The notes beneath the pieces are model-generated. The model saw only the letters and a list, made by a program, of their open reading frames with translations. It was not told where the DNA came from and made no database searches. From Candidatus Bathyarchaeota archaeon (GTDB lineage: Archaea; Thermoproteota; Bathyarchaeia; 40CM-2-53-6): 50,147 nt of DNA. The translations under genes and the position numbers were made by a program. The stretch spans positions 148,763 to 198,909 of the forward strand of contig VBBQ01000028.1 in assembly GCA_005888755.1 (NCBI GenBank), given 5' to 3'. This document shows, piece by piece, positions 24,119 to 50,147 of this stretch. The first letter of the stretch is position 1. Each line of letters opens with the position of its first letter.

Positions 24119-27100
24119 CTAGCATCCAGCAGCGACACAGAAGAACGGGTCTATCTGCGGATCTACCTGGAAGAGCGTTGACGGGCTGAATGGTGTGGTA
24201 ATGCCGTGTCCGAAGTATATGGCTACCGTTGCCAGGTCTACTGCTCCGACTGTTGTGCCTCCTGCAATGTTCGAGTTGACCCAGTATGGGTCAGTTGTAC
24301 CATAGTGAGAGGCGACATCGGCCAGATCGAGAATGTTAACCACTCCATCGTTGTTGTGGTCAGCATAGCTGAGCTTGTAGAGCGAGCTACTGGTGGCTGT
24401 CGGCCCGGTTGGGCAGCATCGTGCGTTGAAAGTGTTGTACGAGAGGAGGATTCTGCCGTCGCGAGTTATCGCTTGTCCTGTTAGCGCACCGGTAGATGTC
24501 TCAGCGCATGGACCACCGACGTGGCCTGCCGTGACACCTGTTCCAGATATCGGAGCAATGCATGACCATGGTCCTGGTCCTACTTCGATGCCCGGGCTGT
24601 TAGCGCTCGGATACATCGGGTCGAACGTTGGACTGGCGCAAACTCCGCCTGCGACCGGCGGGTCACCGCAATAGGGTGCCCACAGTGACTTTTCAAGGAC
24701 GAGCTGCACGGCGCCGATGTTGAACTCGAACAGTGAGCTTTGGCCTTGTAGTTTCACTTGGAGTGTCTTGCATGGTTGTCCGGTCCCGCAGTCGAGACCT
24801 GTAGCGCTGACAACGTTCAGCACGTAGGACTGAAGCAGTGAGCTGGGCACGTCTCGGTTGGCGATGATAGTGTAAGCTACGTCAGTAGCCTTGACATCGT
24901 TGCCGTCCGAGAATTTCCAGTCGTTGCGTATGTGCCAGATCTGGGTAGTAACGCCGGTAGCGCATCCGTTGATAGAGTTGCATCCAACCTCGGTTGGGTT
25001 GAAGGTGGCGCTGTGACTGGTGGTTCCCCAGTCAATGAACTGGGCGGCTGCACCTCCAGTGTTGGGGTTGGCGTTGAGCATCGCATCATAGACCTGTGCG
25101 AGGAAGTCGAATTCCCAGACGCTGTTGGCGGTGAACGGGCTGAGGTTGCTGGTGTCCTGAGAAAAGCCTCGGCGTATGACGCCGGGCGTGGGCTGATTTG
25201 CTGGGTTGCTAGCTGTGTATCCTGGAACCTGGCGAGCGTTCAACAATGTAAAGTAAGGAGCTCCCGCGAGCGTACCGAAGCCTACAGTGTTGACGATACT
25301 TGCCTGGGTAGACACGCACGTTGTAGTGCACTGTTGGAAGTTGAAGCCATTGTTCTCGGCGAAGGTGTCGACGAAGGCGAAGCCTGGTATGTGATGACTC
25401 CACTTGAGATCGTCACCTATCGCTCTCTGGAAGAACGCGCTTGATAGAGCGGCTGTCGGGGCGAATTCGCCTGCGTTGGCATTGGTGTCTGTTTGTGGTT
25501 CGCAGAAGAAGTGATAGTTGTTCGGCTTGAGGGCGGGTGTGCCAGCACAGATCGCACCAGTGTTGATACTGTGGCTGTTGAGGAAGTACTGGTCGGGAGT
25601 GGGGTCAAAGCCCTGGCCTTCCGTGTAGAACTGCCAGGCGCTCGGGCTTCCTCCGGAGACCGACGTGTCTTCGAAGACGATGGGCGTCACTTGGGTGAAG
25701 GTGTAGTATTTGGGTGTGAACTGGGTGCATGGACTGGTCCTTGCATCGTAGCATACTGTGCCAACAAAACCGGTCTGAGTAGCTCTACTCTGAGGTGTTC
25801 CGAAGAGGAAGTTCAACTCGTCAGCGACGATCTGACCGAATTGTTGTCTTCCAAAGTTGACTCTGACATAGGTCTTGATTTGGCCGTTAGGCACGATGTG
25901 CGCGTATGCTCCAGGGTCTGTGGTTAGATCAGCTGCACTGGCTACATTGTCGCAGGTGGCGGTTGAAGGCGATAGTGTGAGACCCATGGAAACGAAGTCG
26001 TCACAGGCAGCCCGCAAATCGTTGTGGCCAGAGTAGCCCGCAACGAGACCGGTAGTGCCTGGATTCCACCAGCGAGAGTTCACGTTCACAGTGCTATCAG
26101 TAATGTGGTATGGACCGACATCGTGTCCGGTTGCTCCAGTGGAGCAGCCGACAACATTGAGCCAAGGATGATTACCGAATTGACATTCGGCAATGTCCAC
26201 CTCAGTGGCCGGGCCTCCTGCTGCATTCGTAACCGGACATGCTGGTGCACTCTGACACAAGTATTCGCTGGTAGTGCCTATCGGGCAACGACCTCCTTGT
26301 CCCGGAACCCAGAATACGCATGGCGCTGAGGCCACACCTGTCATTGTGGTTCGGACAAAGGCTGGATCGTCTAGCAAGTGGTGGAAGGCAGCACCGAGAA
26401 GTGCTCGGGCTGTCGTCGGCTTGACGGTGCTGGGACTGTTCCAGTTTACGTTGAACGTGCCACTGGTAACCGCGGCACTAGCGATACTCACCGCGATGGT
26501 TCCAGTTGCGCCGGTTCCATTGTAGACGTTGGATCGGAGAGAGTAACTTCCGGCAAGGGTACATGGGATAGTGTAGACACCGTTCGGAGTTGCACCTCCC
26601 GAGTCGCTAACTGTAACCGATGGTGAACCGCTCGGCTGGTTGGCCGCCGTCAAAGTGCTGAGCGTGTCCAGAATGTTTGAGCCGGTCTCCTGGTTCCGGA
26701 GAGTTATACTCAACGAGCCGAAACCAGCACTGCAGCCTGCAGCCGTACCGGTTGTGGTGAATGAAGCCGGGGTCGTGGTTCTTGGGACCTGTAGTGCAAT
26801 TCCCATGAAGGCAGGGAAGCTGTTGACGTCGACTCCGAAGTAACCAAGTTCTGCTTGAGGACCGGTGCAGAAGAAGTCGGCGTTGCCGCAGAAAGTGGTG
26901 ATGTCGGAGCTAGATTGTAGAGGCCAATCGCTGACGTCAATCTCACCTAGCTGGAAGTGAGAGAACATGACATCAAAGTCGGAGTAGAAGTGCATGATCA
27001 ACTGCTGAGTAAAAGGCCCGTAAGCCGAAAAGCGAGTAGGACCGCTCTGGTTGATTGCGCGTACCTGATTGTACGTTCCTGGTAGAGCCATGAGAAGAGT

Positions 27101-27142
27101 TAGACTTAGCATTAGAACTAGAATTGGTGTAGTTATTCGCAT
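24119..27142 (-). CDS. ABC substrate-binding protein (SBP_bac_5-like), apparently permuted, with C-terminal dockerin
   Basis: A 1007-residue exported protein with a signal peptide (about 1-29). Segments of the peptide/nickel binding-protein family are present but in an unusual order. The GEIDVSDWPL segment (66-75) and the ALLGAAFHHLLDDPAFV segment (247-263), normally in the second half, come first. The segments NLSPFTANSVWEFDF (666-680), WKFSDGNDVKATDVAY (742-757) and GPGPW (855-859), normally N-terminal, follow. Residues 928-980 are dockerin-like: DHNNDGVVNILDLADV..HYG, then a degenerate second copy. About 18 cysteines suggest disulphides. It is the first gene of the importer cluster, with a TATA-like TCTTAAAAGG about 40 nt before the ATG. 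Confidence 0.85.
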   Translation of the reverse strand: MRITTPILVLMLSLTLLMALPGTYNQVRAINQSGPTRFSAYGPFTQQLIMHFYSDFDVMFSHFQLGEIDVSDWPLQSSSDITTFCGNADFFCTGPQAELGYFGVDVNSFPAFMGIALQVPRTTTPASFTTTGTAAGCSAGFGSLSITLRNQETGSNILDTLSTLTAANQPSGSPSVTVSDSGGATPNGVYTIPCTLAGSYSLRSNVYNGTGATGTIAVSIASAAVTSGTFNVNWNSPSTVKPTTARALLGAAFHHLLDDPAFVRTTMTGVASAPCVFWVPGQGGRCPIGTTSEYLCQSAPACPVTNAAGGPATEVDIAECQFGNHPWLNVVGCSTGATGHDVGPYHITDSTVNVNSRWWNPGTTGLVAGYSGHNDLRAACDDFVSMGLTLSPSTATCDNVASAADLTTDPGAYAHIVPNGQIKTYVRVNFGRQQFGQIVADELNFLFGTPQSRATQTGFVGTVCYDARTSPCTQFTPKYYTFTQVTPIVFEDTSVSGGSPSAWQFYTEGQGFDPTPDQYFLNSHSINTGAICAGTPALKPNNYHFFCEPQTDTNANAGEFAPTAALSSAFFQRAIGDDLKWSHHIPGFAFVDTFAENNGFNFQQCTTTCVSTQASIVNTVGFGTLAGAPYFTLLNARQVPGYTASNPANQPTPGVIRRGFSQDTSNLSPFTANSVWEFDFLAQVYDAMLNANPNTGGAAAQFIDWGTTSHSATFNPTEVGCNSINGCATGVTTQIWHIRNDWKFSDGNDVKATDVAYTIIANRDVPSSLLQSYVLNVVSATGLDCGTGQPCKTLQVKLQGQSSLFEFNIGAVQLVLEKSLWAPYCGDPPVAGGVCASPTFDPMYPSANSPGIEVGPGPWSCIAPISGTGVTAGHVGGPCAETSTGALTGQAITRDGRILLSYNTFNARCCPTGPTATSSSLYKLSYADHNNDGVVNILDLADVASHYGTTDPYWVNSNIAGGTTVGAVDLATVAIYFGHGITTPFSPSTLFQVDPQIDPFFCVAAGC

Positions 27143-27242
27143 TTTTTCTTCAAAAGGCCATTTCGCCTCCAGCCTCCTTTTAAGATTATCCCAAAATAAG
27201 GTCGCTCTGGATACCCCGGGGTGGACGGGGGAAGCCGATGGG

Positions 27243-28637
27243 CTAAAGAGGTTCTATCTTGAGATTTCTTCTTCGTCTAAGAAATCCCACGGCAACTCCA
27301 ATTGCTGCAACAGCTGCAACGCCTCCGACCACTTGAAGGAGCAGAGTGGTGGTGTCGGTGGGGGCGATGCCGAGTTGGCTAGTATTCAAACCTTCACGAC
27401 AGTTCTTGGCGCTGGCCAGTTGTACAGTGGCGACTATGCTGTAAATTCCGACCGGCAAGTGGGATGTTGGCAGAGTATCGTTATAGTGCAGTATCTGATT
27501 CGGCTTGATACTCTGATTTGGTATTACCGCTAGGGTTGCGTTAGGGGGCCCGTAAGCTATAGTCAGGTTGAAGGTTTCCCGGAACGTTCCGGTGTCTTGA
27601 ACTTCGACCGTGAATGGCACGTTCGTCCCAGGCTTAACCTGATTGACGTTGGTCTGAATCCCCTGGACAGCAACGCAGTGTATCGGCGGAGGGACAATAG
27701 TTAGCAGCGTTACCATCATACCCTGAAAACCGCTGTCTTGATCTATGACTGTCACACGGATTGAAAAGTTGCCCAAGAATATGTTGGCCCCATTTGAAAA
27801 CACGTGAGTGGTTATGTCCACGTTCAAGGTTGTATTCGCGGTCCCGGATGAATCCCCAAAATCCCAAAGGTACTTCAGGATTCCCTTGTTCTGCGCCTGC
27901 TGATTGTCGGGGTCGAAGCTCTTTGTCGCGTTGAAGGTAACTATGTCACCCTGTTGAGGACTGGTTGGAGAAACGGTGAATAATGCGGTTGGACCTTCCA
28001 TGCCGGCGACATTCTTGAAATAGCCATCAACAGTCTCAACGCCATACCTTATCTGATCGTACCCGTCGATGAGACGGGTCCAGTTCGGGGACCCTGTTGG
28101 ACATCCTTGAGGACAGAGCCCTCCGGGAGGCTGAGCGCTGTAGCTAGCGGCTGACATTCCGGCCGCCAGGGCTAGAGGGCTAACACCGACCTTCAGTACC
28201 GAAAAGACGAGGTTGGCAAGCGTGCCCGACCCTCCGAGGAAGAGCCCGTGGTTGTTGGTGGTCGTGGCAAGATTCACGACAGCCAACCTCAGAGCACCTG
28301 TATTGTTGTAGTTGCTGGGAGACTTGTACGAATTATCGAAAACTGTGCCTGTTGAGATATCGTAGGAATAGAGGCTGATGTAGTTCTGGTCAAAGTAGAG
28401 AGCGAATTCGTAGGCGTTGAAAGGAAGGGCGTTCGTCACGTTGACCTGAACAGAGAATCGCGACCCAATAGTCAAGGAAGGATCGGTAATGTTCGCGCTA
28501 CCATACGTGCTGCTGAACACTCCCACAATCGCAAGGTTGCCTTGGCCGTGAGCTTTCTCAAAGAAAGGAACAGCCAAGAACAGAGACACTATCCCAAGGA
28601 ACAATAGTAGCGCTGGCTTGGCAGGAAGGTGAGACAA
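27243..28637 (-). CDS. Cohesin-like/PKD surface protein with C-terminal anchor
   Basis: A 464-residue protein: signal peptide about 1-31, a cohesin-like beta sandwich about 34-160 (RFSVQVNVTNALPFNAYEFA with YFDQNYISL), a PKD domain about 215-312 (YLWDFGDSSG), a CARDB-like beta domain about 318-425, one transmembrane helix (about 436-456) and a basic stop sequence FLRRRRNLK. It should stand on the cell surface and could hold dockerin-bearing partners. It lies just upstream of the dockerin-bearing binding-protein gene in the same direction, with a 100-bp gap. The start is TTG; a TATA-like ACTTTTAAGG lies about 45 nt upstream. Confidence 0.75.
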   Translation of the reverse strand: MSHLPAKPALLLFLGIVSLFLAVPFFEKAHGQGNLAIVGVFSSTYGSANITDPSLTIGSRFSVQVNVTNALPFNAYEFALYFDQNYISLYSYDISTGTVFDNSYKSPSNYNNTGALRLAVVNLATTTNNHGLFLGGSGTLANLVFSVLKVGVSPLALAAGMSAASYSAQPPGGLCPQGCPTGSPNWTRLIDGYDQIRYGVETVDGYFKNVAGMEGPTALFTVSPTSPQQGDIVTFNATKSFDPDNQQAQNKGILKYLWDFGDSSGTANTTLNVDITTHVFSNGANIFLGNFSIRVTVIDQDSGFQGMMVTLLTIVPPPIHCVAVQGIQTNVNQVKPGTNVPFTVEVQDTGTFRETFNLTIAYGPPNATLAVIPNQSIKPNQILHYNDTLPTSHLPVGIYSIVATVQLASAKNCREGLNTSQLGIAPTDTTTLLLQVVGGVAAVAAIGVAVGFLRRRRNLKIEPL

Positions 28638-28803: not shown

Positions 28804-30933
28804 TCAGGTCAGGGGAGCACGTCGAGCTCTTCTCCTCCTGAGGAAGAGAAGGCCGGCGACAGCCGCGATAACAACCGCTGCCACACCCGCATAGATTAGA
28901 GTCGAGTTGTCCAGTGGAGGAGGAGGCACCACGGATGCTTGGGACACTGTTTCGACGTGGGTCTTGTAGAATTTCCGACCGCCAGAATCAGTGACCGTCA
29001 CCGTTACGGTATAGTTGCCGCTTTTGGCAAAGGCGTGGGCCGTCGAGGCGCCTGTATCTGTTGACCCGTCGCCGTAGTCCCAGAAATAAGTGTAAGGTGG
29101 GACGCCGCCGGAGATAGCCGCCGTGAATGTTACCGACTGACCTGTAACAGGGGACGTCGTGGAGAGACTGAAGTCCCCTGCGACAACACTTGCAACACTA
29201 ACGCTTGCAAAACTGCTCTCCCCAATTTGGGGGGTTTCACCGTCTTGGGCGACGACCGTGATGGGATAGCTCCCGGCGACTGTGTAGTTGTGACTGGCCG
29301 AGGCAGGGTAGGGAGAGATGAACCCGGTATTCGTTACGACTGACGAGGTACCGTCTCCCCACTTAATCGTGTAGCTGAAGAGTACTGACCGGAACCCTAA
29401 GCCCGATGGGTACGCGTTTGAGTACGTAATGCTTGAGGTGACTTTGACGGGGAAACCTACAGTCGCATTTTGCGTATTGACCACTGTTAGGACAGTGAAC
29501 ACTGGGGTGCCTCCGGTCACATTGACTCGACCGTAAGCTTGGATGGCACTAGGTGGAACTAGTCCTAAACCAGAGTCAGTGACCGTAAGGCTGACGTTGT
29601 AGACTCCGGAAAAATGATAACCTGGTGAAGCGCCGCTGAGGATTTGTGTATTGTTCTGGCTCCGCTGAGAGGTGATAGATGGAGCGGGCTTTGCGCATAC
29701 CGCGGTGTTAGTGCCTGGCGCCGGGGCTGGGCAGAACCTCCATTTCACAGAGTACTTGGCATTCCCTCCTAGCCAGAAACCGCTCCATGTCCCTGACGTC
29801 TCAGTTGCAAGATTGCTGGGTCCTCGAATCGCTGCTGCGAACGGACGCTCGACAACTGTGACATTATGAGGAGTAGGCGTTGCACTGTCGAGAACTCTCA
29901 GGGTCACTCGGCTTACGAAGATCGAAGCATTGCCGTTAGGTGCTGCTATGATTGCAGGATTACCACTGATCTGTGAACTAAACAGATCTGTGTTTGTAGT
30001 ATTGAAATTCCAACCATAAGTCAAGGTTCCTGTGCATCCTGTGCAAGCTATTGTGGAAGTAAACGTGATCAGCGGACCAGGGCCGGATGGGTCTAGCGAG
30101 AAGGTGAAACCTCCACTCCAATTAAGCGTGTGAGCAGGATCAGAATAGGATTCGCTGTCGAAACTTCCCTGGATAATCTGATGAACCACAGGACCGGGAT
30201 TCAAGATACCGCCTTGGCTTCCGTGGCTGATAGTCAGCCCGGTGTTCCCGATACCAACAACATCAAACCTAAGCCGGAAGAGGATGAAGTTACTGCCGTA
30301 GCTTGCGAAAACCAGTTGCAACAGGTGAGCTTGACCAGCAGCATTGTCGATCGTTTGGACGGCATTGAAAGGAGACAAGGCCGCCCAGTTAGTTCCTCCC
30401 AGGTCAAACATCACGGCGTGAAGGATGTTCGGGTTCCACGAGACAAAGATGTCAAAACCGTTCATCGCTGAAGTGGCATTCTGTATGTAGACTACATCGG
30501 CAGTGAAGCCTCCACCGATCTGCGGAGAAACTGTGCTGAATGTTTCATCTTGGTCAGATACTAAAGGCTCTGTGGTCTTGTCGGAAGGAGCCATCGTGGT
30601 ATAATTTCCTACATCGCCGATCCAGGTACATGAGCTACTAGTCTGGAAGACTCCATTCTCGCTTGGAGCGACAGGGAAACCTGTGCCGTTCACCACTGCT
30701 TCTTTCGCTCCAAGCCCACAGTCAATACCTAGCTTGGGCAGGTTGGGAACAGACGGCTGAATGGTTCGTCTTGCAACATTCGACAGCCCGATATTCGAGA
30801 ATGCTGGAGACGCTAGAGAAAGAGTTGTGAGAATAACGATCATGGAAACCGTGATTAGGAGTCCGAGATTCTTGTTCTTCTTCGGCGATCGATTCAAGGC
30901 GTTCAGGGTCCAGTATTTACTTCCATATAGCAT
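28804..30933 (-). CDS. Cohesin-like/multi-PKD surface protein with C-terminal anchor
   Basis: A 709-residue protein with an N-terminal hydrophobic export segment (about 20-45). A cysteine-containing lead (LGIDCGLGAKEAVVNGTGF) precedes a cohesin-like domain (about 135-260; IFVSWNPNILHAVMFDLGG). Four PKD-like modules follow (for example FSYTIKWGDGTSS and YFWDYGDGSTD). The C terminus has a transmembrane helix (AGVAAVVIAAVAGLLFL) and RRRRARRAPLT. Its first 260 residues closely match those of the 2118-residue protein at 38566-44922, so the two genes share a duplicated N-terminal half. The start is ATG. Confidence 0.75.
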   Translation of the reverse strand: MLYGSKYWTLNALNRSPKKNKNLGLLITVSMIVILTTLSLASPAFSNIGLSNVARRTIQPSVPNLPKLGIDCGLGAKEAVVNGTGFPVAPSENGVFQTSSSCTWIGDVGNYTTMAPSDKTTEPLVSDQDETFSTVSPQIGGGFTADVVYIQNATSAMNGFDIFVSWNPNILHAVMFDLGGTNWAALSPFNAVQTIDNAAGQAHLLQLVFASYGSNFILFRLRFDVVGIGNTGLTISHGSQGGILNPGPVVHQIIQGSFDSESYSDPAHTLNWSGGFTFSLDPSGPGPLITFTSTIACTGCTGTLTYGWNFNTTNTDLFSSQISGNPAIIAAPNGNASIFVSRVTLRVLDSATPTPHNVTVVERPFAAAIRGPSNLATETSGTWSGFWLGGNAKYSVKWRFCPAPAPGTNTAVCAKPAPSITSQRSQNNTQILSGASPGYHFSGVYNVSLTVTDSGLGLVPPSAIQAYGRVNVTGGTPVFTVLTVVNTQNATVGFPVKVTSSITYSNAYPSGLGFRSVLFSYTIKWGDGTSSVVTNTGFISPYPASASHNYTVAGSYPITVVAQDGETPQIGESSFASVSVASVVAGDFSLSTTSPVTGQSVTFTAAISGGVPPYTYFWDYGDGSTDTGASTAHAFAKSGNYTVTVTVTDSGGRKFYKTHVETVSQASVVPPPPLDNSTLIYAGVAAVVIAAVAGLLFLRRRRARRAPLT

Positions 30934-31004
30934 CTACTCTATTTACCGTATCGGAAGGACCATCAAAACTTCCAGAGATAATCTCGGAGGCCCAATCCGG
31001 AATC

Positions 31005-34000
31005 TCAGACGCTCTTGCCGTAGTTAATCGCGACCAGGGCCAGGTCTAGCACACCAATCGGCTTCCCCGGGTCATTGTCGACATCAACGTACTGGTCACA
31101 CATGGTACCGGGTGTCGGCATCTGTCCATAGCAGATAGCCACGAGAGCTAGGTCGAGGATGTTTATCTTTCCGTCTCCATTGGCGTCTCCCGGTGGAGAG
31201 ACCCTGAGAGGATAGAGCGCCAGGGATTCGTCTCCTTGGTTGCCAGCGAAATTCTCAGCGGGAGAAATATTTGTGAGAGTGGCCAGGATCGTGTATCTTC
31301 CCCAGGGCTGGGCGCTGGTCCAGTTAAAATAGAGTGTTTGAGACTGGCCTGGGGTCAGTGTGAGATTCCAGGCTTTGAGAACGTTGCTCGTATTGTTGGC
31401 CACGAGCGTCAGTCTTGCAGTCTCGAGCGAGTCTCCGTAGTTTGAGACTATTGTTGTTATGTTCACTGGATAGTTCGACCTTACGAGCCCTGGAGTGGCG
31501 GAGAGGAATCGGACTCCTACATCATTGACTCCCGAGATCGGATTTGAGCTAGAGAACAGGATTTCCAGGCTTGAGGAGATGAGGCTGTTCCAGAAAACCC
31601 AGATTCGCCTGTCGCTGTTCTGGACCGCCGCGGGTCCGGTGTCTTCTCCAGTTGTTAGCTGAGTTGCAGGAGACCAGCTTGCACCATTAGGATCGGTTGC
31701 CGTAGCGTAGAAAATGTACTCTGATGGAGGGCTGACGGTGGACCTCTGGAAGAAGACCCAGTATGTTCCGTCCCGGGCCTGAAGTGTTACTGGATGATCG
31801 TCGTCGTTTGAAGTGCTGAAGAGGAAGCCTGTCTTCGGAGTCCAAGAGCCTGCAGGAATACCAGTTGATGGTAGAGTTGTGACAGTGCCATTCGTCGTTG
31901 TATAGTATAGGTTTAGGTTCGTCGTGTCGTTAGACGACCAGAAAATCCGTATCTTACCATCTCTAGTCTGAGTTATGGACGGACTTTTCTGGCCTAGATT
32001 TGATACAGATGCTGGGGGCAGCGGGAATTCAGAGGACCATCCGGTTCCGTTGTAGTACTTGTAATAGACCTGGCTCAGAGTGCCTTGAGAATTCTGTCTG
32101 GACCACGTCACCCAGATCCTCCCGTTTCGGTCTTGAACAGCGGAAGGCGCTTTGTCATTCATGGTGGACGAGGTTAGTTGGACGGGACCGGTTGTAGCGT
32201 GCGGATTATTCTCAGTGCTTGAGTAGAACCGGTAGAAGATCTGGGGATGCCCTGTACTGTTGGAGGACCAGAGGATCATCATCGTCTGGTTGACCAGTTG
32301 AGTGATGAAACTCTGCGCATCATTGGACGACCCTGTCGTGACCGATTGTTTGACGGACCAAGCAGTCCCGTTCCACATCTTGAAGTAGATTATAGGGTTC
32401 AGTAGCGAGCCAGACGGTTTTTCATTCCAAGTCAGCCATATCCGTCCGAGATAGTCAACGGAGGCTGAAGGTGACAGGAAGAGGCTTGTGGAAGGAGTCG
32501 GTCCTGCAATGACTAGATCGCCCTGGTCGTATACGTTGTTAGTGTTAGTGTCGTAGGCAACCGTTTCGCCAAGGTCCCACCGACCATTGTTATTCGAATC
32601 AAAGTATTTGACGCGAGTGTCGCTCCCAAGCGCGGTCCCGTTTAGAGGTTGAGTTCCGGACACGACCGTCTCCCCTGACTCGTAGGTGGAGTCGCCGTTG
32701 TTGTCGTACACCACGACCGCTCCAGAACTCCACGCACCAGAGCCCGGTGCTCCGTTGGCTATGACGGACTCGGTCCGTTCGTAGAGACCATTACTGTTGC
32801 TATCGTAGACTATCGTTTCTCCCGGGCTCCACAGACCCGTTCTCGGCACGTCGATGAACCTGAGATTGGGGTCGGATTTCAGCAGAGTCCCGATCGCGGG
32901 AGTAGTGCCGGCGATTACAGGCTCGCTGAGTAAAGTGCCCCCTAGCGGGGACATACCAACGACGACGGTGTCGCAGCACGGATTAAAGAGACCGTTGGAG
33001 TCAGTGTCATAGACCAAGGCTTCTCCAGGGTTCCACCAGGTGTTTCCGTCCGTCTCAACATACTTCATCTTTGAATCGAACTTTATGGCTGTTCCGACAG
33101 CCGGACGCGCGCCAGAGAGGACGGGTTCCATCAAAACCGTGCCGTTTGGGGGAGCAGATCCAACCACGACCAAATCGCCGGTCACATAGATATGGTCCGA
33201 GTCCGCATCATACACAATAGTCTCACCTCTGTCCCAGTGACCACTAAGATTGGCGTCTACGAAGTGAAAATGATTGTCGATAGTCAGAATCCCGCTGCCA
33301 TCGGTCGGCGGGGTGGGTCCAATAATTACAGTGTCACCGGTCCTGTAGATGCCGCTGCCGAATATGTCGTAGATCACGGAGTCGGGCCCTGGATCGTAGA
33401 TCCCGTTCCCATTTGAATCGAAGTATTTGATTTTCGAGTCAATTGTAGCGTTGAAATATCCCTGGTTGATCGTGTCGTAGACAACTGTTTCACCGGTGTC
33501 CCAGACGTTGTTACTGTTCGCATCTACAAATCTGATTTTAAGGTCAGAGTTCAACCCTGCGAGCGACGGAGGATTAGCAGACAGAAGAAGAGGCTCGGTT
33601 GACTCGTAGATGTTGTTTCCGTTGCTGTCGTACGCAACTGCCTCTCCTGTGTCCCAGACGCTATTTCTGTTGGTATCGATGAACATGATCTTTGGGTCAG
33701 CCTTGAGAGAAGTTCCAACGGCTGGTGTTGGCCCGTATAGAACGCGGTCGCCTGTAGCGTATACACCTGAAAGGTTTGCGTCGTAGACTACCGATTCCCC
33801 TGTGTCCCAGTGGCCGTTATTGTTTGTATCAACGTATTTGAGATGGGGGTCGATCGACGCGCTGTATAGACCATTGTTGTTACTGTCATAAACGACGGGA
33901 TTGCCTGGGACCCAGGAAGAACCTGGGCCAATGAATTTGACATGACTATCATTTGTCAGAGAAGTGCCGGGGACGACCGGTGTCCCTCCGATGACCGGGT

Positions 34001-34475
34001 TCCCTGTGATGTAGCGGTTACTATTGCTGATGTCGTAAACGACGCTTTCGCCCGCGTCCCAGCGGTTGTCTCCATTGATGTCAACATACTTGACGAGCGG
34101 GTCAGCTCTGAGCGTAGCCCCCGGGGCGACGCTTCCTGCAATGACGGGTTCGGTAGACTCGAAGATGCTATCGTTGTTCGAGTCGTACAGCACCGGCTCA
34201 CCAAGGTCCCAGTGGGCGTTCGCGTTAAGGTCGACGAACTTGACGAGGGAGTCACGTTTCAAGACCGTGTTATTAGCCGGAGAGGTGTCCACAAATCTGA
34301 GCTTGGTATCGAGGGAAAGGGTGGTTCCCATGGGGACCGGCTGGGGTCCCGAGAAGGTCTGGGCTTTCACTACTGGAAACTGGAAGATGGCAAACATGCT
34401 GATTATCAGGAGTGAGAGTACGAGGAATGCGCGGGATACTTGTCTTGCCGAGGCCTTTGGAGTCATGAGCGTCAC
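31005..34475 (-). CDS. Secreted Ca-repeat/propeller protein with C-terminal dockerin
   Basis: An 1156-residue exported protein. Signal peptide about 1-38; then about 640 residues of acidic repeats (KYVDxNxNGxWDxGE alternating with VVYDSNNNGxYE). Next come about 300 residues of propeller-type repeats with Trp-rich blades (GRIWLTWNEKPSG, GKIRIFWSSNDTT, RRIWVFWNSLISS), a CARDB-like domain (about 960-1060) and a C-terminal dockerin-like pair: DANGDGKINILDLALV..CYG and a second DVDNDPGKPIGVLDLALV..NYG. It could bind sugars or other cell-surface ligands through the propeller. No membrane anchor is present; attachment through a cohesin protein is the natural inference. Confidence 0.78.
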   Translation of the reverse strand: MTLMTPKASARQVSRAFLVLSLLIISMFAIFQFPVVKAQTFSGPQPVPMGTTLSLDTKLRFVDTSPANNTVLKRDSLVKFVDLNANAHWDLGEPVLYDSNNDSIFESTEPVIAGSVAPGATLRADPLVKYVDINGDNRWDAGESVVYDISNSNRYITGNPVIGGTPVVPGTSLTNDSHVKFIGPGSSWVPGNPVVYDSNNNGLYSASIDPHLKYVDTNNNGHWDTGESVVYDANLSGVYATGDRVLYGPTPAVGTSLKADPKIMFIDTNRNSVWDTGEAVAYDSNGNNIYESTEPLLLSANPPSLAGLNSDLKIRFVDANSNNVWDTGETVVYDTINQGYFNATIDSKIKYFDSNGNGIYDPGPDSVIYDIFGSGIYRTGDTVIIGPTPPTDGSGILTIDNHFHFVDANLSGHWDRGETIVYDADSDHIYVTGDLVVVGSAPPNGTVLMEPVLSGARPAVGTAIKFDSKMKYVETDGNTWWNPGEALVYDTDSNGLFNPCCDTVVVGMSPLGGTLLSEPVIAGTTPAIGTLLKSDPNLRFIDVPRTGLWSPGETIVYDSNSNGLYERTESVIANGAPGSGAWSSGAVVVYDNNGDSTYESGETVVSGTQPLNGTALGSDTRVKYFDSNNNGRWDLGETVAYDTNTNNVYDQGDLVIAGPTPSTSLFLSPSASVDYLGRIWLTWNEKPSGSLLNPIIYFKMWNGTAWSVKQSVTTGSSNDAQSFITQLVNQTMMILWSSNSTGHPQIFYRFYSSTENNPHATTGPVQLTSSTMNDKAPSAVQDRNGRIWVTWSRQNSQGTLSQVYYKYYNGTGWSSEFPLPPASVSNLGQKSPSITQTRDGKIRIFWSSNDTTNLNLYYTTTNGTVTTLPSTGIPAGSWTPKTGFLFSTSNDDDHPVTLQARDGTYWVFFQRSTVSPPSEYIFYATATDPNGASWSPATQLTTGEDTGPAAVQNSDRRIWVFWNSLISSSLEILFSSSNPISGVNDVGVRFLSATPGLVRSNYPVNITTIVSNYGDSLETARLTLVANNTSNVLKAWNLTLTPGQSQTLYFNWTSAQPWGRYTILATLTNISPAENFAGNQGDESLALYPLRVSPPGDANGDGKINILDLALVAICYGQMPTPGTMCDQYVDVDNDPGKPIGVLDLALVAINYGKSV
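32410..34350 (-). repeat. Tandem YDxNxNG / DxNxNGxWDxGE protein repeats
   Basis: Roughly eleven units of about 55-60 codons, each with two acidic loops and a spacer such as VIAGxxPxxGTxLxxDP. Units are diverged, so the array is old or under selection to differ. The gene at 18400 carries about two units of the same type. Confidence 0.7.
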
Positions 34476-41500: not shown

Positions 41501-44500
41501 GAGGATATTGTCACTACAGGCGGCAGGTCGTTCACAACTTCTGTTGTCGTACCTGATCCTGGTCCTGCACTGTTTGTTGCTGTGACCGTTATCGTAAATG
41601 TTTGCGATTTCAGCGCGCCTGTAGACAAGTAGGTGTGAGTGTCGGATGTCGCGGTGCCGACCAGTGTGTTGATCGTTCCGTCTCCCCAGTTGACAGTAAT
41701 CCCGGTAACGGTTACGCTACTTGTGACCGTGAATGTTACGGTGACTAATTGGCCTGTGTTGGCCGGGCTCGGGGTGGGCGGGTTGACTGTGACTGTTGGG
41801 ACGCCGATCGCGTTGACGGTTATGGAGGTTGTTCCCTGACCGGTGTTCGCGCTATTGTCCGTTGCTGTGATGGTGATTGTGAAGGATCCAGCAGAAGTGT
41901 AAGTGTGCGTATCACTCGTTGCTGTTCCTGAGAGAGTGTCGACTGGGCTGCTGTCTCCCCAGTTGACGGTGATCGATGAGACTGTTCCATCAGGGTCGGT
42001 TGCTGTGAAACTTACTGTAACTTGTGTTCCGGTATTCACAGGGTTCGGCGCGACGGTCGTGCCTGTCACGACTGGGATTCTGTCATTCACTGTCTCTGTT
42101 GTGGTGCCTGATCCAGGACCTGCGCTGTTGGTTGCTGTCGCAGTGATTGTGAATGTCTGCGACTTGAGGGCTCCCGTTGAGGAGTAGGTGTGAGTGTCCG
42201 ATGTTGTTGATCCTGATAGAGTGTTTGTCGTGCCATCCCCCCAGTTCACAGTAATTCCTGTAACCGTTACACTACTCGTGACAGTGAAAGTCACTGTGAC
42301 CAGTTGGCCGGTATTCGCAGGGTTCGGTGTTGGAGCATTGACAGTGACTGTGGGAATAGTGATCGCGTTTACTGTTATTGATCCTGTGCCGGGGCCTGTG
42401 GAGCCACTATTGTCTGTCGCGGTAACCGTGATGGTGAATGGACCAGCGGTATTGTAGGTGTGAGTATCGCTTGTCGCCGTGCCTGAGAGCGTGTCGACAG
42501 CGGTTCCGTCGCCCCAGCTGACTGTTATGGAGGAAATGGTACCGTCAGGATCAGCGGTCGCGAAAGTGATCGTCACTAATTGTCCAGTGTTCGCGGGGTT
42601 CGGTAGAACGGAAGAAACGGTCGCTGTCGGAGGCCGATCGTTAACTGTTTCCGTAGTAGTGGAAGAGCCGGGTCCCGCACTGTTTGTCGCGGTTACGGTT
42701 ATCGTGAAAATCTGCGACTTGAGAGTACCAGTCGAGGCGTAAGTGTGAGTGTCCGATGTGGCTGTGCCTGCCAAGGTGTTGGTGGTACCGTCACCCCAGG
42801 CGACCGTGATCCCCGTTACAGTTGTGGTGCTGGAGACGGAGAAAGTTACAGTAACTATCTGGCCGGTACTGGCAGGGTTTGGTGTTGGACTGTTGACAGT
42901 CACAGTCGGGGCACCTCCTGAAACGAGCACGGTGCCACTTCCCTGGCTTGTTGCGTGAACAGAATCTCCGCTGTAAGTGCCTGTGAGAGTGTGAGTTCCA
43001 GATCCTGCCGCGGTAGGCGTGTAGACAACCGAACAAGCGGGTGCGCCAGGGTTAACCTCAACCAGATTGCATGAAGGAGAGATGAAAGTTCCTGCCCCAT
43101 CGCTGGCAAAGTCCACAGTGCCCTTGGGGGTGGTACCGGTTCCGGGCGAGCTGTCGGTGACAGTTGCAGTGCATGTGGAAGGTGTGCCGATAGGTACGCT
43201 CCCTGGGCTACACGAAACGACCGTGGAGGTGGAACGAGCGTTAATTATCTCCGTAACCCGGTTGGATACTTCTTGGATTAACGAAACCGCGTTCGCGGCA
43301 GTCTCTTGACCAACTGCAAGAACGGTGAACCCTGGGGACGCGTTCGCCGAAAGATAAGTGTGGGAAACGCTGGTAGTGTTTGCACCGCCGGTAACCATAC
43401 TGATTACGCTAGTGGCGGTCGTACCATCTCCGAACGCGAACTTGACACTTATCGTAGATGAGCGGAGCGACAGAGTGTAACCCGTAGAATAGGCCGCGAC
43501 GACAGAGTACTGGACGATCTGACCCACAGTTGTAGTTGTCGGATTAGCAGACAGTGTTAACGTGTAGGCTTGAGGCGTTCCCGTTACGTTGACCATATAT
43601 GTGAAAGTTAGACTTGTAGGGGATGAACCGGGAAGGACCGGCGTGGCTGAGTCGGTAATCTTCAATGTGTTAGTGTAGACACCGGCTCTACTGTATGTGA
43701 CACTCCGAGTGTTAGTCTGGCCGGGCTGAGACACTATGGAAGGCGCTGGTGTCGTGCAATCGACACTGGCTAGGGTTGGAAGAGCACCGGGGCAGAACCT
43801 CCAACTACCAGTGTATGGGGGAATCCCGCCCAGCCAGTCACCAGTGAACGTGTTGACCGTGCCAACGTTGGTGGTTGTTTTTCCCTGTGGTCCCTGAACA
43901 TTAACTGTCAATGGCAGACGGTGTACCATGGCGATAACATGCACGGCGGAATCAGTGACGGTGAGTATTATGCGGTTGCCGGTCAGGGTTGCGGTGGGAA
44001 TAATTAGTGAAGCAGGGTTCGCTGTTGAATCTGTGATTCCATCGCTGTTGAGATCCCACGCGTAAGTGTAGGGACCCGTACCACCGGTTACAGTGGCCTG
44101 GAAACTATTAGTGGAGCCGGGTATGATGGGAGTAGAATTCGTAAAGCTGGCAACCCAGTTCAGGGAAAGAGTCGGGTCGAAGAAAGACTCAGCGTCAAAC
44201 GCACCATTATTGGTCGTATGAACGACAGCACCAGGGTTCGTAATAAGGTCGTTACTGATCAACAGTCCCGTATTTCCGACGCCAACAACATCGAAACGTA
44301 GGCGGAAGAAAACAAGGTCCCCGCCTTGATGAACGAAGATAACTTGGACTACGTGAAGAGAGCCCACGGAGTTATCAACGGTTATCTGCTGAGTAAACGG
44401 ACTATCAAGAAGCCAGGGAAGACCGCCTTGGTCAAACTTGACAAGTTGAAGGACTGTTGGGTTCCAGTTAATCATCATGTCGAACCCGTTCGTTGCAGAA

Positions 44501-44922
44501 GTGGCATTCTGAAGGTAAACCATGTCAGCCGTAAAGCCTCCACCGATCGCGGGAGAAACCGCGCCGAAGGTCTCATCCTGGTCCGTTACCAGAGGCTCGT
44601 TAGTGCCATCACCAACACCAGTGCCTACCGGTGTTAAGGCGACGTCCCCTATCCAAGTGCAGCTTGGCAGAATCTGTAATGGACCATTTTCGGAAGGAGC
44701 TACTGGAAAGCCTGTTCCGTTAACAACGGCCGCGGTTGTTCCCAGCCCGCAGTCGAAACCCAGTTGCGTATTAGTTCCCGTAGAGGGCTGTATGACCAGG
44801 GCGGGGTTTAGAGAGTGGTTGCCCAACGAATGGAAATTGGCCAGTGATGCAGTCGGGACTCCTGCAAGTATCAGTAATACTACGAGGGTAACGAGGTTCT
44901 TGGCCGTTATTCTCCTACTCAA
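38566..44922 (-). CDS. Giant cohesin-like / PKD-repeat surface protein, 2118 aa
   Basis: Signal segment about 1-30; a lead (LGFDCGLGTTAAVVNGTGF) and cohesin-like domain about 105-270 (MMINWNPTVLQLVKFDQGG), both paralogous to the protein at 28804. Then three PKD-like modules, a bacterial Ig-like domain (STCTATVTDSSPGTGTTPKG) and twelve PKD-type modules (about 685-1760), nearly all alternating between form A (TVNxPTPNPxxTGQLVTVTF, WGDGTTNTL) and form B (SSVxPNPANTGQLVT, DPDGTVSSI). The C-terminal 350 residues have three further beta domains, ending YLFGSFTVQ, like the end of the protein at 47054. No terminal anchor is visible. It is a long stalk presenting one cohesin-like head. The start is TTG. 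Confidence 0.82.
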   Translation of the reverse strand: MSRRITAKNLVTLVVLLILAGVPTASLANFHSLGNHSLNPALVIQPSTGTNTQLGFDCGLGTTAAVVNGTGFPVAPSENGPLQILPSCTWIGDVALTPVGTGVGDGTNEPLVTDQDETFGAVSPAIGGGFTADMVYLQNATSATNGFDMMINWNPTVLQLVKFDQGGLPWLLDSPFTQQITVDNSVGSLHVVQVIFVHQGGDLVFFRLRFDVVGVGNTGLLISNDLITNPGAVVHTTNNGAFDAESFFDPTLSLNWVASFTNSTPIIPGSTNSFQATVTGGTGPYTYAWDLNSDGITDSTANPASLIIPTATLTGNRIILTVTDSAVHVIAMVHRLPLTVNVQGPQGKTTTNVGTVNTFTGDWLGGIPPYTGSWRFCPGALPTLASVDCTTPAPSIVSQPGQTNTRSVTYSRAGVYTNTLKITDSATPVLPGSSPTSLTFTYMVNVTGTPQAYTLTLSANPTTTTVGQIVQYSVVAAYSTGYTLSLRSSTISVKFAFGDGTTATSVISMVTGGANTTSVSHTYLSANASPGFTVLAVGQETAANAVSLIQEVSNRVTEIINARSTSTVVSCSPGSVPIGTPSTCTATVTDSSPGTGTTPKGTVDFASDGAGTFISPSCNLVEVNPGAPACSVVYTPTAAGSGTHTLTGTYSGDSVHATSQGSGTVLVSGGAPTVTVNSPTPNPASTGQIVTVTFSVSSTTTVTGITVAWGDGTTNTLAGTATSDTHTYASTGTLKSQIFTITVTATNSAGPGSSTTTETVNDRPPTATVSSVLPNPANTGQLVTITFATADPDGTISSITVSWGDGTAVDTLSGTATSDTHTYNTAGPFTITVTATDNSGSTGPGTGSITVNAITIPTVTVNAPTPNPANTGQLVTVTFTVTSSVTVTGITVNWGDGTTNTLSGSTTSDTHTYSSTGALKSQTFTITATATNSAGPGSGTTTETVNDRIPVVTGTTVAPNPVNTGTQVTVSFTATDPDGTVSSITVNWGDSSPVDTLSGTATSDTHTYTSAGSFTITITATDNSANTGQGTTSITVNAIGVPTVTVNPPTPSPANTGQLVTVTFTVTSSVTVTGITVNWGDGTINTLVGTATSDTHTYLSTGALKSQTFTITVTATNSAGPGSGTTTEVVNDLPPVVTISSVAPTSPCVGQSVTVSFTSTDPDGTVASNVVSWGDGTAVDNLPGTATSDTHTYTVGGAFAFSVTATDNSGSTGQGTGSITTVLAGCVPTVTVNTPTPNPVSTGQLVTVTFTVTSTSTVNGITVNWGDGTTNTLLGTVTMDSHTYASTGNVKSATFTITVTATNSAGPGSGTTTEVVNDLPPAVTVSNVSPNPANTGQLVTVTFAGTDPDGTVSSITVSWGDGSAVDTLGGGATSDTHTYTTASTFTITVTATDNSGSTGQATGSVTTVVPVGAPTVTVNNPTPNPADTGATVTVVFTVSSTAPVTVVSVDWGDGTTNSLSGSATSDTHSYSSTGTAKSQTFTITVTATNSAGPGSGSTTETVNDRPPVASFTFTPINPSGGQAVNFDATASTDPDGTITSYAWDFGDGTSGTGATQIHIYNPASTMSFTVMLTVTDNSGNTGSTSQPVTVTVTAVSPPTVSITNVSPNPASTGQMVSLTFTVSSTATVTGITVSWGDGTTLDSLPGSATSDTHSYANTGNAMIQAFTITVTPTNSGGPGSATTTETVNDRAPVVTISTVSPNPANTGQLVTAAFTATDPDGTVSSIIVNWGDSTTPDSLAGSATSDTHTYASTASFTITITATDNSGSTGSATTSETVTPVTTTPVNLTFQVFNFTAFHDGFGSFEVLVNGHVVDVVNIPFVRSATIPNADSAPGANKFVNFGPFDITAFVVQGQNNITFVNPTSSRFSLIRNVMITQGNTIFLNVMGARFVSPGRPVTFTFSNPPLTIRSFTASNNNPFVKQDVTFTATYTGGTGPFKCLFRFGNGNLWGVKGNNGSCSVAPDYDFPGSFTATVRITGSTTGDDQRMTLAASVDVEPDPVFTTTSQDIASQSETANNLQSFSLTVTNPSSKTILLRVDVLVTRPDGSHTWLIGQSFTLQPGQTTTFSLQAYPPAGQHGTYEFKAALKFGIDNNSDGILQNSEKIVTSGYLFGSFTVQ
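39590..42960 (-). repeat. PKD super-repeat, period about 555 bp
   Basis: Pairs of PKD modules (A plus B, about 185 codons) recur with a period of 552-564 bp over about 3.4 kb. The near-constant period creates repeating open frames on the opposite strand. Pure A/B order is broken once by a classical PKD module (YAWDFGDGTSG) towards the C-terminal end, about 40200-40400. Confidence 0.8.
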
Positions 44923-45243: not shown

Positions 45244-46989
45244 CTAGGTTCCAAAGCCGTAGTTGATAGCGACCGTGGCTAGGTCCAGGACGCTGACGGC
45301 GCAGTCATGGTTGACATCCTCAGGAACGTTCAACAATGACGTCCCATACTTGATAGCCACCCGGGCAAGGTCTATGACGTTCACGACGTTGTTCCCGTCG
45401 ATGTCTGCTGGGGCGTACCAGTTCGGGTCACCCACCTTAGTTCCATAGTGAATTGCGACTATGGCTAGGTCGACAACGTCGACCCTGCAGTCATGATTGA
45501 TGTCCTCGGGTCCGATCGATATTCCGTACTTGAGCGCGACCATGGCCAGGTCAACAACGTTCACCTTGCCGTCTCCATTGATGTCAGATGGAACACGCTG
45601 TACCGTAACGTTGCCCGCGACCGCGGTGTTGTCCCCGAGCAGACGAATAGACTCTCCTGGAACTGGGATTGCATACAGGAAGACCGTGTAGTTGGCCGGA
45701 ACGACCCTACTCGTATTCCAGTTCATCTCCATGAACGCGGATGTTCCGGGCATGATCGACGTAGTTGTCGACTTGAACAAGAAACTATTCTGACTTTGAT
45801 AGTAGCCGTTGACAGTTACGTTCTCCTTGTAATCGCCAGGGTTGTTCGCAGTAAAGTTCACCTTGACCGTACCTGCCTCCATGAGGGAAGCGGGCGATTT
45901 AGTGGCGTTAGACAACGAGACGTGGTGGATCGGCATCGGGGTTGATGTACGCAACCAAACATCAAAGTCTGCACCCGGACCGGTGAGGTCCGTCCCCCAG
46001 AAAACGTACATCATCTTGTCCCGGTCGTAATGAATCGCCGCAGGATGACTGTCGTAGATCGTGTTCCCTGTCGGGTCCACAGTGAACTGCACTTCTGCGG
46101 ACCATGTAGCCCCAAGGTTCGTCGAGGTTACATAGAACACATCATCCTCACAGCTTCCACCTGATATGGGTACACATCTGGTCCAGAACTCCCACAGCAC
46201 TCCGTTCAAGTCCTGCGTCAGCCATGATTGATGGTCGTCGGCGGTATTAGTGGTCAACCGAATTTCAGAGGACCATGCTCCGTTGTAGGTCTTGTAGAAG
46301 ATGTCAAGATTTCCATAACGGTTTGCCGCATACAAGACCCAAATGGTTCCATCATCGGTCTGATAAACCGATGGCTCTTCCTCCGACCCTCCAGTCGAGA
46401 ACTGGGCCTCCTTCGACCATACCCCATTGTTATAGGACTTGTACTGAACATACCGAACCACACTGCCGGACAGTGACTCTCGGGTCCAGTACATCATTAC
46501 AGTACCATTTCTCAACTGCACAAGGCTTGGAGTGGAATCCCTCCCCTGTGGAGTGGTGAGCCTGCTGGGGCTGGACCAGACGCCTGATGCATAAGTTTTG
46601 TAGTAGAGCGAGAAATTGCCAGACTTGTCCGAAGTGTAGACCAGCATGACATTTCCGTTGTTAAGTTGAGCCAGCGCCGGAGTCAGACCGTTCGAAGTAC
46701 TGTTCGTTAATTGCTGTTCTGGCAGCCACGATACTCCATTGAACTGTCTCATCCAGATCGTCCAGTTTCCAAGACGGTTTGAATCGTACGCGACCCACAG
46801 GGTAGAATGAGAGTCTTCCATGACATACGGCTTCTCCTCGATTGATCCAAGAGGAGTTAGGCCGATGCCGGGAGACCATGTTACTGCGTGGGCCGGGCGG
46901 ACACCAAAGTACGCCGTCTGAACTAGAAGTTCCGCACCTATCAATACTAGTAGGAGAAAAAGGGATTTCTTCCTCATACGGACCGCCAC
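45244..46989 (-). CDS. Secreted beta-propeller protein with four dockerin-like segments
   Basis: A 581-residue exported protein. Signal peptide about 6-35 (SLFLLLVLIGAELLVQTAYF); Trp-rich propeller blades about 40-345 (STLWVAYDSNRLGNWTIWMR, GTIWVLYAANRYGNLDIFY); a CARDB-like domain about 350-458. Then four dockerin-type half-repeats about 462-580: DINGDGKVNVVDLAMV, DINHDCRVDVVDLAIV, DIDGNNVVNVIDLARV and DVNHDCAVSVLDLATV, each ending YG. Two complete dockerins in tandem is uncommon. The start may be GTG at 46989 or ATG at 46977 (MRKKSLF), the latter giving a more typical signal peptide. The propeller is similar to that of the protein at 31005. Confidence 0.8.
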   Translation of the reverse strand: MAVRMRKKSLFLLLVLIGAELLVQTAYFGVRPAHAVTWSPGIGLTPLGSIEEKPYVMEDSHSTLWVAYDSNRLGNWTIWMRQFNGVSWLPEQQLTNSTSNGLTPALAQLNNGNVMLVYTSDKSGNFSLYYKTYASGVWSSPSRLTTPQGRDSTPSLVQLRNGTVMMYWTRESLSGSVVRYVQYKSYNNGVWSKEAQFSTGGSEEEPSVYQTDDGTIWVLYAANRYGNLDIFYKTYNGAWSSEIRLTTNTADDHQSWLTQDLNGVLWEFWTRCVPISGGSCEDDVFYVTSTNLGATWSAEVQFTVDPTGNTIYDSHPAAIHYDRDKMMYVFWGTDLTGPGADFDVWLRTSTPMPIHHVSLSNATKSPASLMEAGTVKVNFTANNPGDYKENVTVNGYYQSQNSFLFKSTTTSIMPGTSAFMEMNWNTSRVVPANYTVFLYAIPVPGESIRLLGDNTAVAGNVTVQRVPSDINGDGKVNVVDLAMVALKYGISIGPEDINHDCRVDVVDLAIVAIHYGTKVGDPNWYAPADIDGNNVVNVIDLARVAIKYGTSLLNVPEDVNHDCAVSVLDLATVAINYGFGT

Positions 46990-47053
46990 GTTATTTTCAG
47001 AAGGGATCTTCCCTAAGAAAAGGGGAAAATTTGGGGCCCCGCCCCTTCTCGTG

Positions 47054-50000: not shown

Positions 50001-50147
50001 GCGGACACAGTGGACATCGAGCTAGTAGTTCCCTGGACAATCGACACAGATGTTGGAGCAACACTGAGACTGTAATTGAACGATGCGACAACGCTCAAGC
50101 TGAACGAAGTGGTTCTGACTACCCCACCCGTAGAAGTGCCGGTGATC
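47054..50147 (-). CDS. Giant repeat surface protein, N terminus beyond the window
   Basis: The frame is open to the right edge, so the start lies outside; a TTG at 50098 is internal to a repeat. The visible part has four complete and one partial copy of a roughly 100-residue beta module (YSLSVAPTSVTLVQGTTSA, SISGLPTGVTASAFTPNPVT). Two copies of a second module follow (VAWSPNSASIVAGSGTTPNV), then a thrombospondin-3-like calcium loop (DTDGDGIFDSVDTQP), a Cys-containing beta domain, a PKD domain (WSWNFGDGSPVQ) and a C-terminal beta domain ending TVTGSFRIR, like that of the giant cohesin protein. No anchor or dockerin is present at the C terminus. Confidence 0.8.
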   Translation of the reverse strand, partial: ITGTSTGGVVRTTSFSLSVVASFNYSLSVAPTSVSIVQGTTSSMSTVSALLVATGAGVQTVTLSISGLPTGVTASAFTPNPVTPASPAATSTFTLTAAATAPVVSGVTVTITSFDYSLSVAPTSVTLIQGTTSAPSTVSALLVSGTAQTVTLSISGLPTGVTASAFTPNPVTPASPAATSTFTLTAAASAPVVSGVTVTITGTSTGGVVRTTTFTLNVAAAFNYSLSVAPTTVTLVQGTTSATSTVSVLLVSGSAQPVTLSISGLPTGVTASAFTPNPVTPASPAGTSTFTLTAAATAPVVSGVTVTITGAPLGRTTTFTLNVVASFDYSLSVAPTTVTLVQGTTSAASTVSALLVATGAGVQTVTLSISGLPTGVTASAFTPNPVTPASPASTSTFTLTAAATAPVVSGATVTITGTSTGGVVRTTTFTLNVLSAFNYTVAWSPNSASIVAGSGTTPNVVATLTSGTTTSVACTVTVPVATGLAASPLSFSITPTTAGATQAVMISTTVFTSGGTYIINVSCTGGSGTHTANFTLSVTPANFDYSVAWSPSSATITAGSGTTPNVVATLTSGTTTALACTVTVPAATGLAASPLSFSITPAVAPGATQAIAISTTTSTPAGTYTISVSCTLGIGSHTASFVLTVQSPSQDTDGDGIFDSVDTQPTVFSNDFSDTSLGGTTYGTILSRGDQCPTTPCQLTIQEASPSTGILITSGAAGGLTPASISVCGGASILSVGANTQLLVKCGSVTITVITGSVGATFVGSGSNAGVTGTATITAGNSITFQPATFGFTAPATNNATITVTINGQTVPVAPGTSTNSPFSIFTITAQSPKGEVPAVGAVLKFDGHSSFSTTGLVTTWSWNFGDGSPVQTLNTAKVVYTYTTSGTFTVTLTVTDSTGASSSSSQTITVIPAPLIGTVTWLHNLFVANNKLTQNFTVPVTNPNSYAVLVNVNVSGNCDTICPFSINSGPVLVQPGQTIYISVFHTFSPLDQGTTFVFQVRLTFTANTSNMNISTYTLAATVTGSFRIR
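48840..50147 (-). repeat. Tandem beta-module repeats, 290-355 bp
   Basis: Highly similar modules with strings such as GLPTGVTASAFTPNPVTPAS repeated unchanged in every copy. Spacing varies (about 291, 333 and 354 bp) because one copy lacks the linker TGTSTGGVVRTTTFTLNV. Such near-identity implies recent duplication or gene conversion. Confidence 0.75.

Follow-up and report, generated by a model that had tools for sequence, protein, structure and literature searches.

A probable non-cellulosomal cohesin-dockerin surface assembly around a Dpp/Opp-type importer in a soil-type Bathyarchaeota lineage

Introduction

The described systems closest to the one treated here are archaeal. In Archaeoglobus fulgidus, the system comprises a few cohesin and dockerin proteins and is not known to be linked to an importer. 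A cohesin-dockerin pair from this organism has been reported to bind (refs 167 and 168, as cited in PMC9012536). In ANME (anaerobic methanotrophic) archaea, dockerin-tagged ATP-binding cassette (ABC) binding proteins of the NikA/OppA and TroA types are known, together with cohesin proteins (PMC9012536). Crystal structures show that both dockerin helices rest on cohesin strands 8-3-6-5, with the recognition pair close to where the calcium loop ends (PMC5141474). Here, a cluster of cohesin and dockerin genes beside a Dpp/Opp-type ABC importer is described from Candidatus Bathyarchaeota archaeon (GCA_005888755.1). The window, that is, the whole analysed stretch of 50,147 nucleotides (contig VBBQ01000028.1, positions 148,763 to 198,909), lies at one end of contig C13 in a metagenome-assembled genome (MAG) of 2.01 Mb and 95% completeness. 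The cluster likely encodes a non-cellulosomal surface assembly in which the solute-binding protein (SBP) of the importer and other secreted proteins are predicted to dock on cohesins. A literature search, with most candidates judged by title or abstract, found no treatment of cohesin-dockerin systems in Bathyarchaeia.

Cohesin and dockerin modules

Four proteins of the cluster, Coh1 to Coh4, carry an N-terminal cohesin module, and four others, namely the SBP, the propeller-type proteins DocProp and DocProp2, and a small cupredoxin-like protein, carry dockerins (Table 1); both sets had been proposed in an earlier sequence-only reading of the window, and both were recovered here. Coh1 passes the Pfam cut-off for PF00963, and Coh3 lies just under it in the protein scan and passes in the genome search. 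The Coh1 profile matches cohesins of the Protein Data Bank (PDB) at 0.002 and that of Coh3 matches type II-like cohesins at 1.4e-16. Coh2 and Coh4 fall below the PF00963 cut-off, Coh4 matching weakly in the genome search, and were assigned by a family profile and Foldseek. This Coh2/Coh4-type profile, which includes domains of relatives, matches the PDB cohesin 3l8q at 4e-4 (cohesins being four of its five matches) and recovers the Pfam-type cohesins of the genome (C37 at 1e-14); 6 of its 11 members have a weak PF00963 match. In a Foldseek search with a poor Coh2 model, cohesins occupied ranks 1-8 among 350,542 chains, at E-values of 0.008 and weaker. A PKD or immunoglobulin-like (Ig) identity for the cohesin-like domains, which the sequence-only reading had named as its own refutation, is contradicted by the profile evidence. 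The N-terminal extensions of Coh2 and Coh4 contain paired cysteines, and those of their relatives a calcium-loop-like motif, D-V-D-G-D-G-A-x-D-P-L-V-S-D.

PF00404 matches all four dockerin proteins, DocProp at the cut-off and the SBP weakly. A lineage dockerin profile recovers the four at E <= 3e-20; this profile was seeded and iterated in the lineage, with the window dockerins among its seeds, so that independent support comes from the Pfam matches. An alignment-based genome search also recovered the SBP dockerin, at about 1e-18. The modules consist of two 22-residue F-hand repeats with D-x-N-x-D-G-x-x-x-x-x-D loops, the SBP dockerin having only its first loop intact. The tight repeat consensus noted earlier holds throughout the genome, with Leu-Ala after the last calcium ligand in 25 of 25 scorable repeats; the searches recovered 12 dockerin proteins and 8 cohesin modules from it.

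Regarding the cargo, the solute-binding protein proposed earlier belongs to SBP family 5 by PF00496 and profile match. The cupredoxin assignment stands on the motif C-x2-H-P-x2-M-H-G, kept in four of five relatives in the alignment, and the Pfam scan of this protein gave no cupredoxin match. The propeller assignments are suggested by weak BNR, Reg_prop and GH43-type matches. Ahead of its propeller (amino acids (aa) ~50-660), DocProp has about ten calcium-loop-like repeats, D-x-N-x-N-x-x-W-D-x-G-E-x-V-V-Y-D, with no Pfam match; such stretches have relatives in other proteins of related genomes. In the taxonomic family of the window, cargo with a Pfam match is, besides SBPs, mostly propellers (BNR, NHL, Reg_prop) and PKD proteins, and many dockerin proteins have no Pfam match outside the dockerin. 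The 77 family dockerin proteins other than Dpp-type SBPs include three phosphoesterases, three PstS, one GH5, one glucose/sorbosone dehydrogenase-like protein and three sub-threshold GH43-like propellers. Pfam scans found no confident glycoside hydrolase among the dockerin proteins of this genome, and the earlier statement that the cargo is not glycoside hydrolases is true as a rule.

The genome-specific dockerin signature

Dockerins of unrelated proteins in one genome resemble each other at a few defined positions. The 96 dockerin proteins collected from the family were sorted into cargo groups by homology outside the dockerin (50% coverage), and positions 13 and 14, counted from the first calcium ligand as 1, were compared together with their repeat-2 equivalents. 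At these code columns, different cargo within one genome is identical at a frequency of 0.655, against 0.243 for the same cargo across genomes and 0.284 for unrelated pairs. The excess over label shuffles has a z of 13.8 (p 3e-4, the lowest value that 3000 shuffles allow), and z exceeded 11 in every leave-one-genome-out run. At 30 other variable dockerin columns, the respective values are 0.278, 0.328 and 0.261, and the four main cluster cargo groups alone give 0.84, 0.25 and 0.27 at the code columns. The genome of the window has Leu-Ala, while its relatives have mainly Ala-Ser, Val-Ala, Val-Ser or Phe-Val. Given that the code is genome-specific on both repeats, the simplest cause would be selection by a shared partner outside the cargo. 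One cohesin column, number 79, on the strand G-x-x-R-L-A-V-V, is likewise genome-specific (family-wise p 0.0035), and this strand may be part of the 8-3-6-5 docking face mentioned above. The variable dockerin pair, directly after the last calcium ligand, would be offset from the recognition pair of the crystal structures.

Membrane anchors and the Pst loci

A C-terminal transmembrane (TM) segment with a basic tail was found in 24 of 69 cohesin-only proteins, in none of 89 dockerin-only proteins and in none of 7 proteins with both modules (Fisher 1.5e-10; family proteins, some of them incomplete at contig ends). In the window, the TM scan located such anchors in Coh1 and Coh2, the two cohesin proteins for which they had been claimed, and found none in the dockerin proteins, the C-terminus of the SBP included. 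Many full-length cohesin proteins of the family are without one. The family also has proteins with two or three cohesins and short adaptors that combine a cohesin with a dockerin, both consistent with a docking assembly. Thus, cohesin proteins appear to be anchored sometimes and not always, and dockerin proteins, judging from these scans, apparently never.

A similar arrangement exists at a second importer. In three related genomes (G017, G016 and G005), a phosphate-type binding protein, PstS, with a C-terminal dockerin directly adjoins a cohesin protein that bears a C-terminal membrane segment. In G017, the surrounding operon includes PstC, PstA, PstB and PhoU by NCBIfam; in G005 the matching genes were assigned partly by position and appearance, and in G016 PstB and a permease are visible within the stretch examined. 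Its independent recurrence at an importer unrelated to Dpp gives the strongest comparative support for the predicted docking of SBPs on membrane sockets. In G017 and G005, ordinary dockerin-free PstS copies lie adjacent to the tagged ones. The dockerin-tagged phosphoesterases of relatives (for instance L126:2071-4239 and L140:1645-3786) could be functionally paired with dockerin-tagged PstS.

The permuted solute-binding protein

Alignments indicate that the Dpp-type binding protein is circularly permuted. Compared with the E. coli DppA/NikA/GsiB/OppA profile, the canonical C-terminal two thirds come first and the N-lobe second. When an alignment of the SBP family was set against a profile built from seven E. 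coli members of SBP family 5, the template segments appeared in the order 227-286, 281-334, 444-499 and 31-236. Rotation of the alignment at one point gave a global match over the full length (497 columns, E 4e-21), while the native order matched partially (E 3e-13) and three other rotations scored lower; profile matches in the PDB followed the same permuted order. Rotation barely alters the single-sequence PF00496 score (21.2 to 21.5 and 33.6 to 35.9 bits). Between the first two template segments lies a beta domain of ~120 residues (aa ~110-235), whose fold search gave weak CnaB/DUF3823-like matches, and the dockerin sits after the relocated N-lobe. A literature search gave no report of a circularly permuted SBP among the matches listed.

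The same genome contains four tandem paralogues of the permuted, dockerin-tagged SBP (G000:C25:113027-125205, L024/L025; 43-76% identical to that of the window) and a further truncated paralogue on contig C17. In an SBP copy of G016 (L051:6617-6808, C23), a TGA stop interrupts the dockerin, and the first repeat alone stays in frame.

Locus and distribution

The Dpp/Opp importer is complete (SBP_5, DppB, DppC, DppD and DppF), and the Pfam assignment of its permeases and ATPases confirms the claimed link between the cluster and an ABC importer. The minus-strand order is DppF-DppD-DppC-DppB, SBP, Coh1, Coh2, DocProp and Coh3; in the distal part, the NosD-type and cupredoxin-like genes on the plus strand are followed by Coh4, DocProp2 and, truncated at the contig end, a PKD protein. 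In G017, its apparent syntenic counterpart has 3915 aa and a cohesin at its start, so the cluster probably extends beyond the contig.

In G017, of the same genus, the order is nearly complete (DppF-DppD-C-B-SBP-Coh1-Coh2-SBP'-DocProp-Coh3-NosD-cupredoxin-Coh4-X-DocProp2-large PKD), and large parts of it are kept in three other congeners (G016, G013 and G007). The SBP, cohesin and dockerin proteins are about 28-57% identical to those of congeners; that the order persists among proteins so divergent points to a functional unit. The family of the window is rich in cohesins and dockerins, which are rare in the sister families of its order, and this SBP type was found in the family only. Within the class, Pfam cohesins occur in 90 of 232 genomes, so that the earlier description of these modules as sporadic in archaea does not hold there. 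GenBank records of four relatives give a soil origin for their MAGs.

Table 1. Positions of the features of the cluster and of the Pst loci compared with it
Feature	Position	Strand	Evidence
DppF-type ATPase	19360..20418	-	PF00005/PF08352
DppD-type ATPase	20451..21407	-	PF00005/PF08352
DppC-type permease	21509..22933	-	PF00528/PF12911
DppB-type permease	22943..23974	-	PF00528
SBP: Dpp/Opp-type SBP family 5, 1007 aa, signal peptide, dockerin near C-terminus	24119..27142	-	PF00496 at aa 732-766
SBP dockerin, second Ca loop degenerate	24206..24364	-	Lineage profile 8e-22; PF00404 0.064; genome search 1.2e-18
Coh1: cohesin and PKD, C-terminal TM, Arg-rich tail	27243..28637	-	PF00963 5e-7; TM aa 432-450
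Coh1 cohesin module	27990..28541	-	Pfam and profile matches
Coh2: divergent cohesin and PKD, C-terminal TM, Arg-rich tail	28804..30933	-	Family profile, fold search, TM scan
Coh2 cohesin module	30118..30738	-	Family profile
DocProp: calcium-loop-like repeat array, beta-propeller, C-terminal dockerin	31005..34475	-	PF00404 1e-4; orthologues in relatives
DocProp dockerin	31011..31193	-	PF00404, lineage profile
Coh3: secreted, single cohesin, anchor not found	34534..35421	-	PF00963 1e-4; PDB profile match
Coh3 cohesin module	34918..35334	-	Pfam and profile matches
NosD-type beta-helix, PKD and membrane anchor protein, cluster-conserved	35780..37561	+	Pfam, synteny, TM scan
Small cupredoxin-like protein, C-terminal dockerin	37606..38304	+	PF00404 2.9e-7; Cys-x2-His-Pro-x2-Met-His-Gly motif
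Dockerin of cupredoxin-like protein	38128..38295	+	PF00404, lineage profile
Coh4: N-terminal divergent cohesin, then many PKD/Ig domains; 2118 aa	38566..44922	-	Pfam, family profile
Coh4 cohesin module	44155..44769	-	Pfam genome search 0.038, family profile
DocProp2: beta-propeller-like, two tandem dockerins (four repeats)	45244..46989	-	PF00404 4.6e-11
DocProp2 tandem dockerins	45253..45588	-	Pfam, lineage profile
PKD/Ig repeat protein, N-terminus missing (contig end)	47054..50147	-	Pfam, synteny
Pst loci with dockerin-tagged PstS beside cohesin protein	L211:6136-16083, L212:7466-13000, L213:269-9838

Function and alternative explanations

Module identity, synteny, the genome-specific code and the anchor asymmetry support well the earlier proposal of a surface assembly tied to the ABC importer, and a non-cellulosomal assembly of this kind, with cohesin-dockerin binding predicted from sequence, is the likely function of the cluster. 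The SBP, the propeller proteins and the cupredoxin-like protein would be secreted proteins that lack a membrane anchor and finish in a dockerin plug, for which the neighbouring cohesin proteins would be the sockets. Coh1 and Coh2 would tether this cargo to the membrane by their C-terminal TM segments, and Coh3 and Coh4 are probably free or extended scaffold pieces. Since nearly all dockerins of the genome share one signature, the different cargo proteins can probably replace one another on one shared set of sockets, instead of each plug having its own; the physical binding and the choice of pairs are predictions. Owing to the permutation, the plug would be carried on the new C-terminus of the SBP, and docking would hold this protein by DppBC without a lipid or TM anchor. 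Hand-over of the solute to the importer is plausible, and the substrate, going by the SBP family, would be peptides.

Several observations weigh against this reading. AlphaFold models were poor, with a mean pLDDT (predicted local distance difference test) of 38 for the Coh2 cohesin (5-row alignment) and of 40 for the SBP (9 rows), the latter with moderate confidence limited to the beta insert and short N-lobe stretches. Coh3 and Coh4 have no recognisable anchor in the TM scan, and the second loop of the SBP dockerin lacks calcium ligands. Cohesin columns 83 and 85, on the same side of the strand as 79, reach nominal significance only, and kinship among genomes was handled in the code test by permutation and leave-one-out rather than by a full phylogenetic model. 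In addition, some dockerins deviate from the signature of their genome, such as that of the G017 PstS, and thus more than one specificity class may exist.

The dockerin-like repeats might instead be stand-alone modules, either end caps stabilised by calcium or self-dimerising units, and the cohesin-like domains might be adhesive beta-sandwiches, with no mutual binding. Some of the cohesin-like domains are indeed very divergent, and stalk proteins built of beta-sandwiches with PKD domains are a common kind of adhesin. Nevertheless, this seems unlikely, since a code on both repeats best fits a shared partner that is not part of the cargo, a genome-specific column exists on the cohesin as well, cohesin and dockerin genes adjoin on several contigs and at two importers, and the C-terminal TM segment, possible in cohesin proteins, is absent from dockerin proteins. 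The likeness of dockerins within a genome could also result from concerted evolution, by gene conversion or recent module shuffling, with no selection by a shared socket; dockerin modules are mobile between proteins, and this genome contains tandem SBP paralogues. However, only a few helix positions are homogenised, and the linker, the calcium loop and the other variable columns hardly differ from background (0.278 against 0.261). From genome to genome, moreover, the SBP dockerins retain their specific short linker with its Tyr-Trp pair and their degenerate second loop, even as the signature changes with the genome, which counts against gene conversion and makes this explanation improbable.

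A cellulosome-like complex that degrades polysaccharides and holds binding proteins as well is the least probable alternative. Its components are hinted at by the weak GH43-like propellers and the single GH5 among the cargo of the family, in which two- and three-cohesin proteins occur; one two-cohesin protein of this genome (C41; 1481 aa) has PKD, cohesin and MG2 matches in Pfam. Nevertheless, no cellulose-binding module was found on the cohesin proteins scanned (a subset of the family, C41 included), no glycoside hydrolase was confidently identified among the dockerin proteins of this genome, and binding proteins and propellers are the commonest cargo. In this genome, the hallmarks of a cellulosome, namely confidently identified glycoside hydrolases with dockerins and a multi-cohesin scaffoldin carrying a cellulose-binding module, were not found.

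Beyond the importer-linked surface assembly, a more general scheme has an even chance of being correct. Across the family, plug-and-socket modules would hold the SBPs of at least two unrelated importers (Dpp-type and Pst), with cohesins anchored in the membrane taking the place of anchors on the SBPs themselves, the species-specific code at positions 13 and 14 would drift jointly over all cargo, and the permutation would place the plug at a new C-terminus. The archaeal non-cellulosomal modules, long without a clear role, would thereby gain a testable one, the holding of SBPs and other extracellular proteins at the membrane. A code that differs by species, yet is common to unrelated cargo, makes the pairing directly testable and may provide natural, possibly orthogonal, plug-socket pairs, and the permuted SBP would represent an unusual way to fit a plug onto an importer component.

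Comparison with known systems

The clostridial cellulosome (type I/II) shares with this cluster the plug and socket modules, surface anchoring, symmetrical dockerin repeats and recognition residues near the end of the calcium loop. It differs in that the cargo here is mostly binding proteins and propellers, a scaffoldin with a cellulose-binding module was not seen, and the variable pair lies directly after the last calcium ligand, whereas in the cellulosome it lies directly before. As in E. coli, where Dpp, Nik, Gsi and Opp SBPs are of family 5, the SBP stands beside DppBCDF-type permeases and ATPases, but the archaeal protein is apparently permuted and, with its insert and dockerin, reaches ~1000 aa against ~520. 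The Archaeoglobus fulgidus system is likewise archaeal and outside cellulosomes, whereas here a single genome holds 12 dockerin proteins and 8 cohesin modules. The closest likeness is to ANME archaea, which also combine non-cellulosomal dockerins on ABC SBPs, cohesin proteins in the same genome and multi-cohesin proteins. In contrast, the present lineage is a soil Bathyarchaeota-type one with a conserved cluster that includes the importer and TM-anchored sockets, a seemingly permuted SBP and a genome-specific code, and no dockerin protein with an S-layer domain was noted. Thus, the precedent lies in ANME archaea, to which the present case adds the lineage, the conserved cluster linked to an importer, the code, the uneven distribution of anchors, the parallel at the Pst loci and the permuted SBP.

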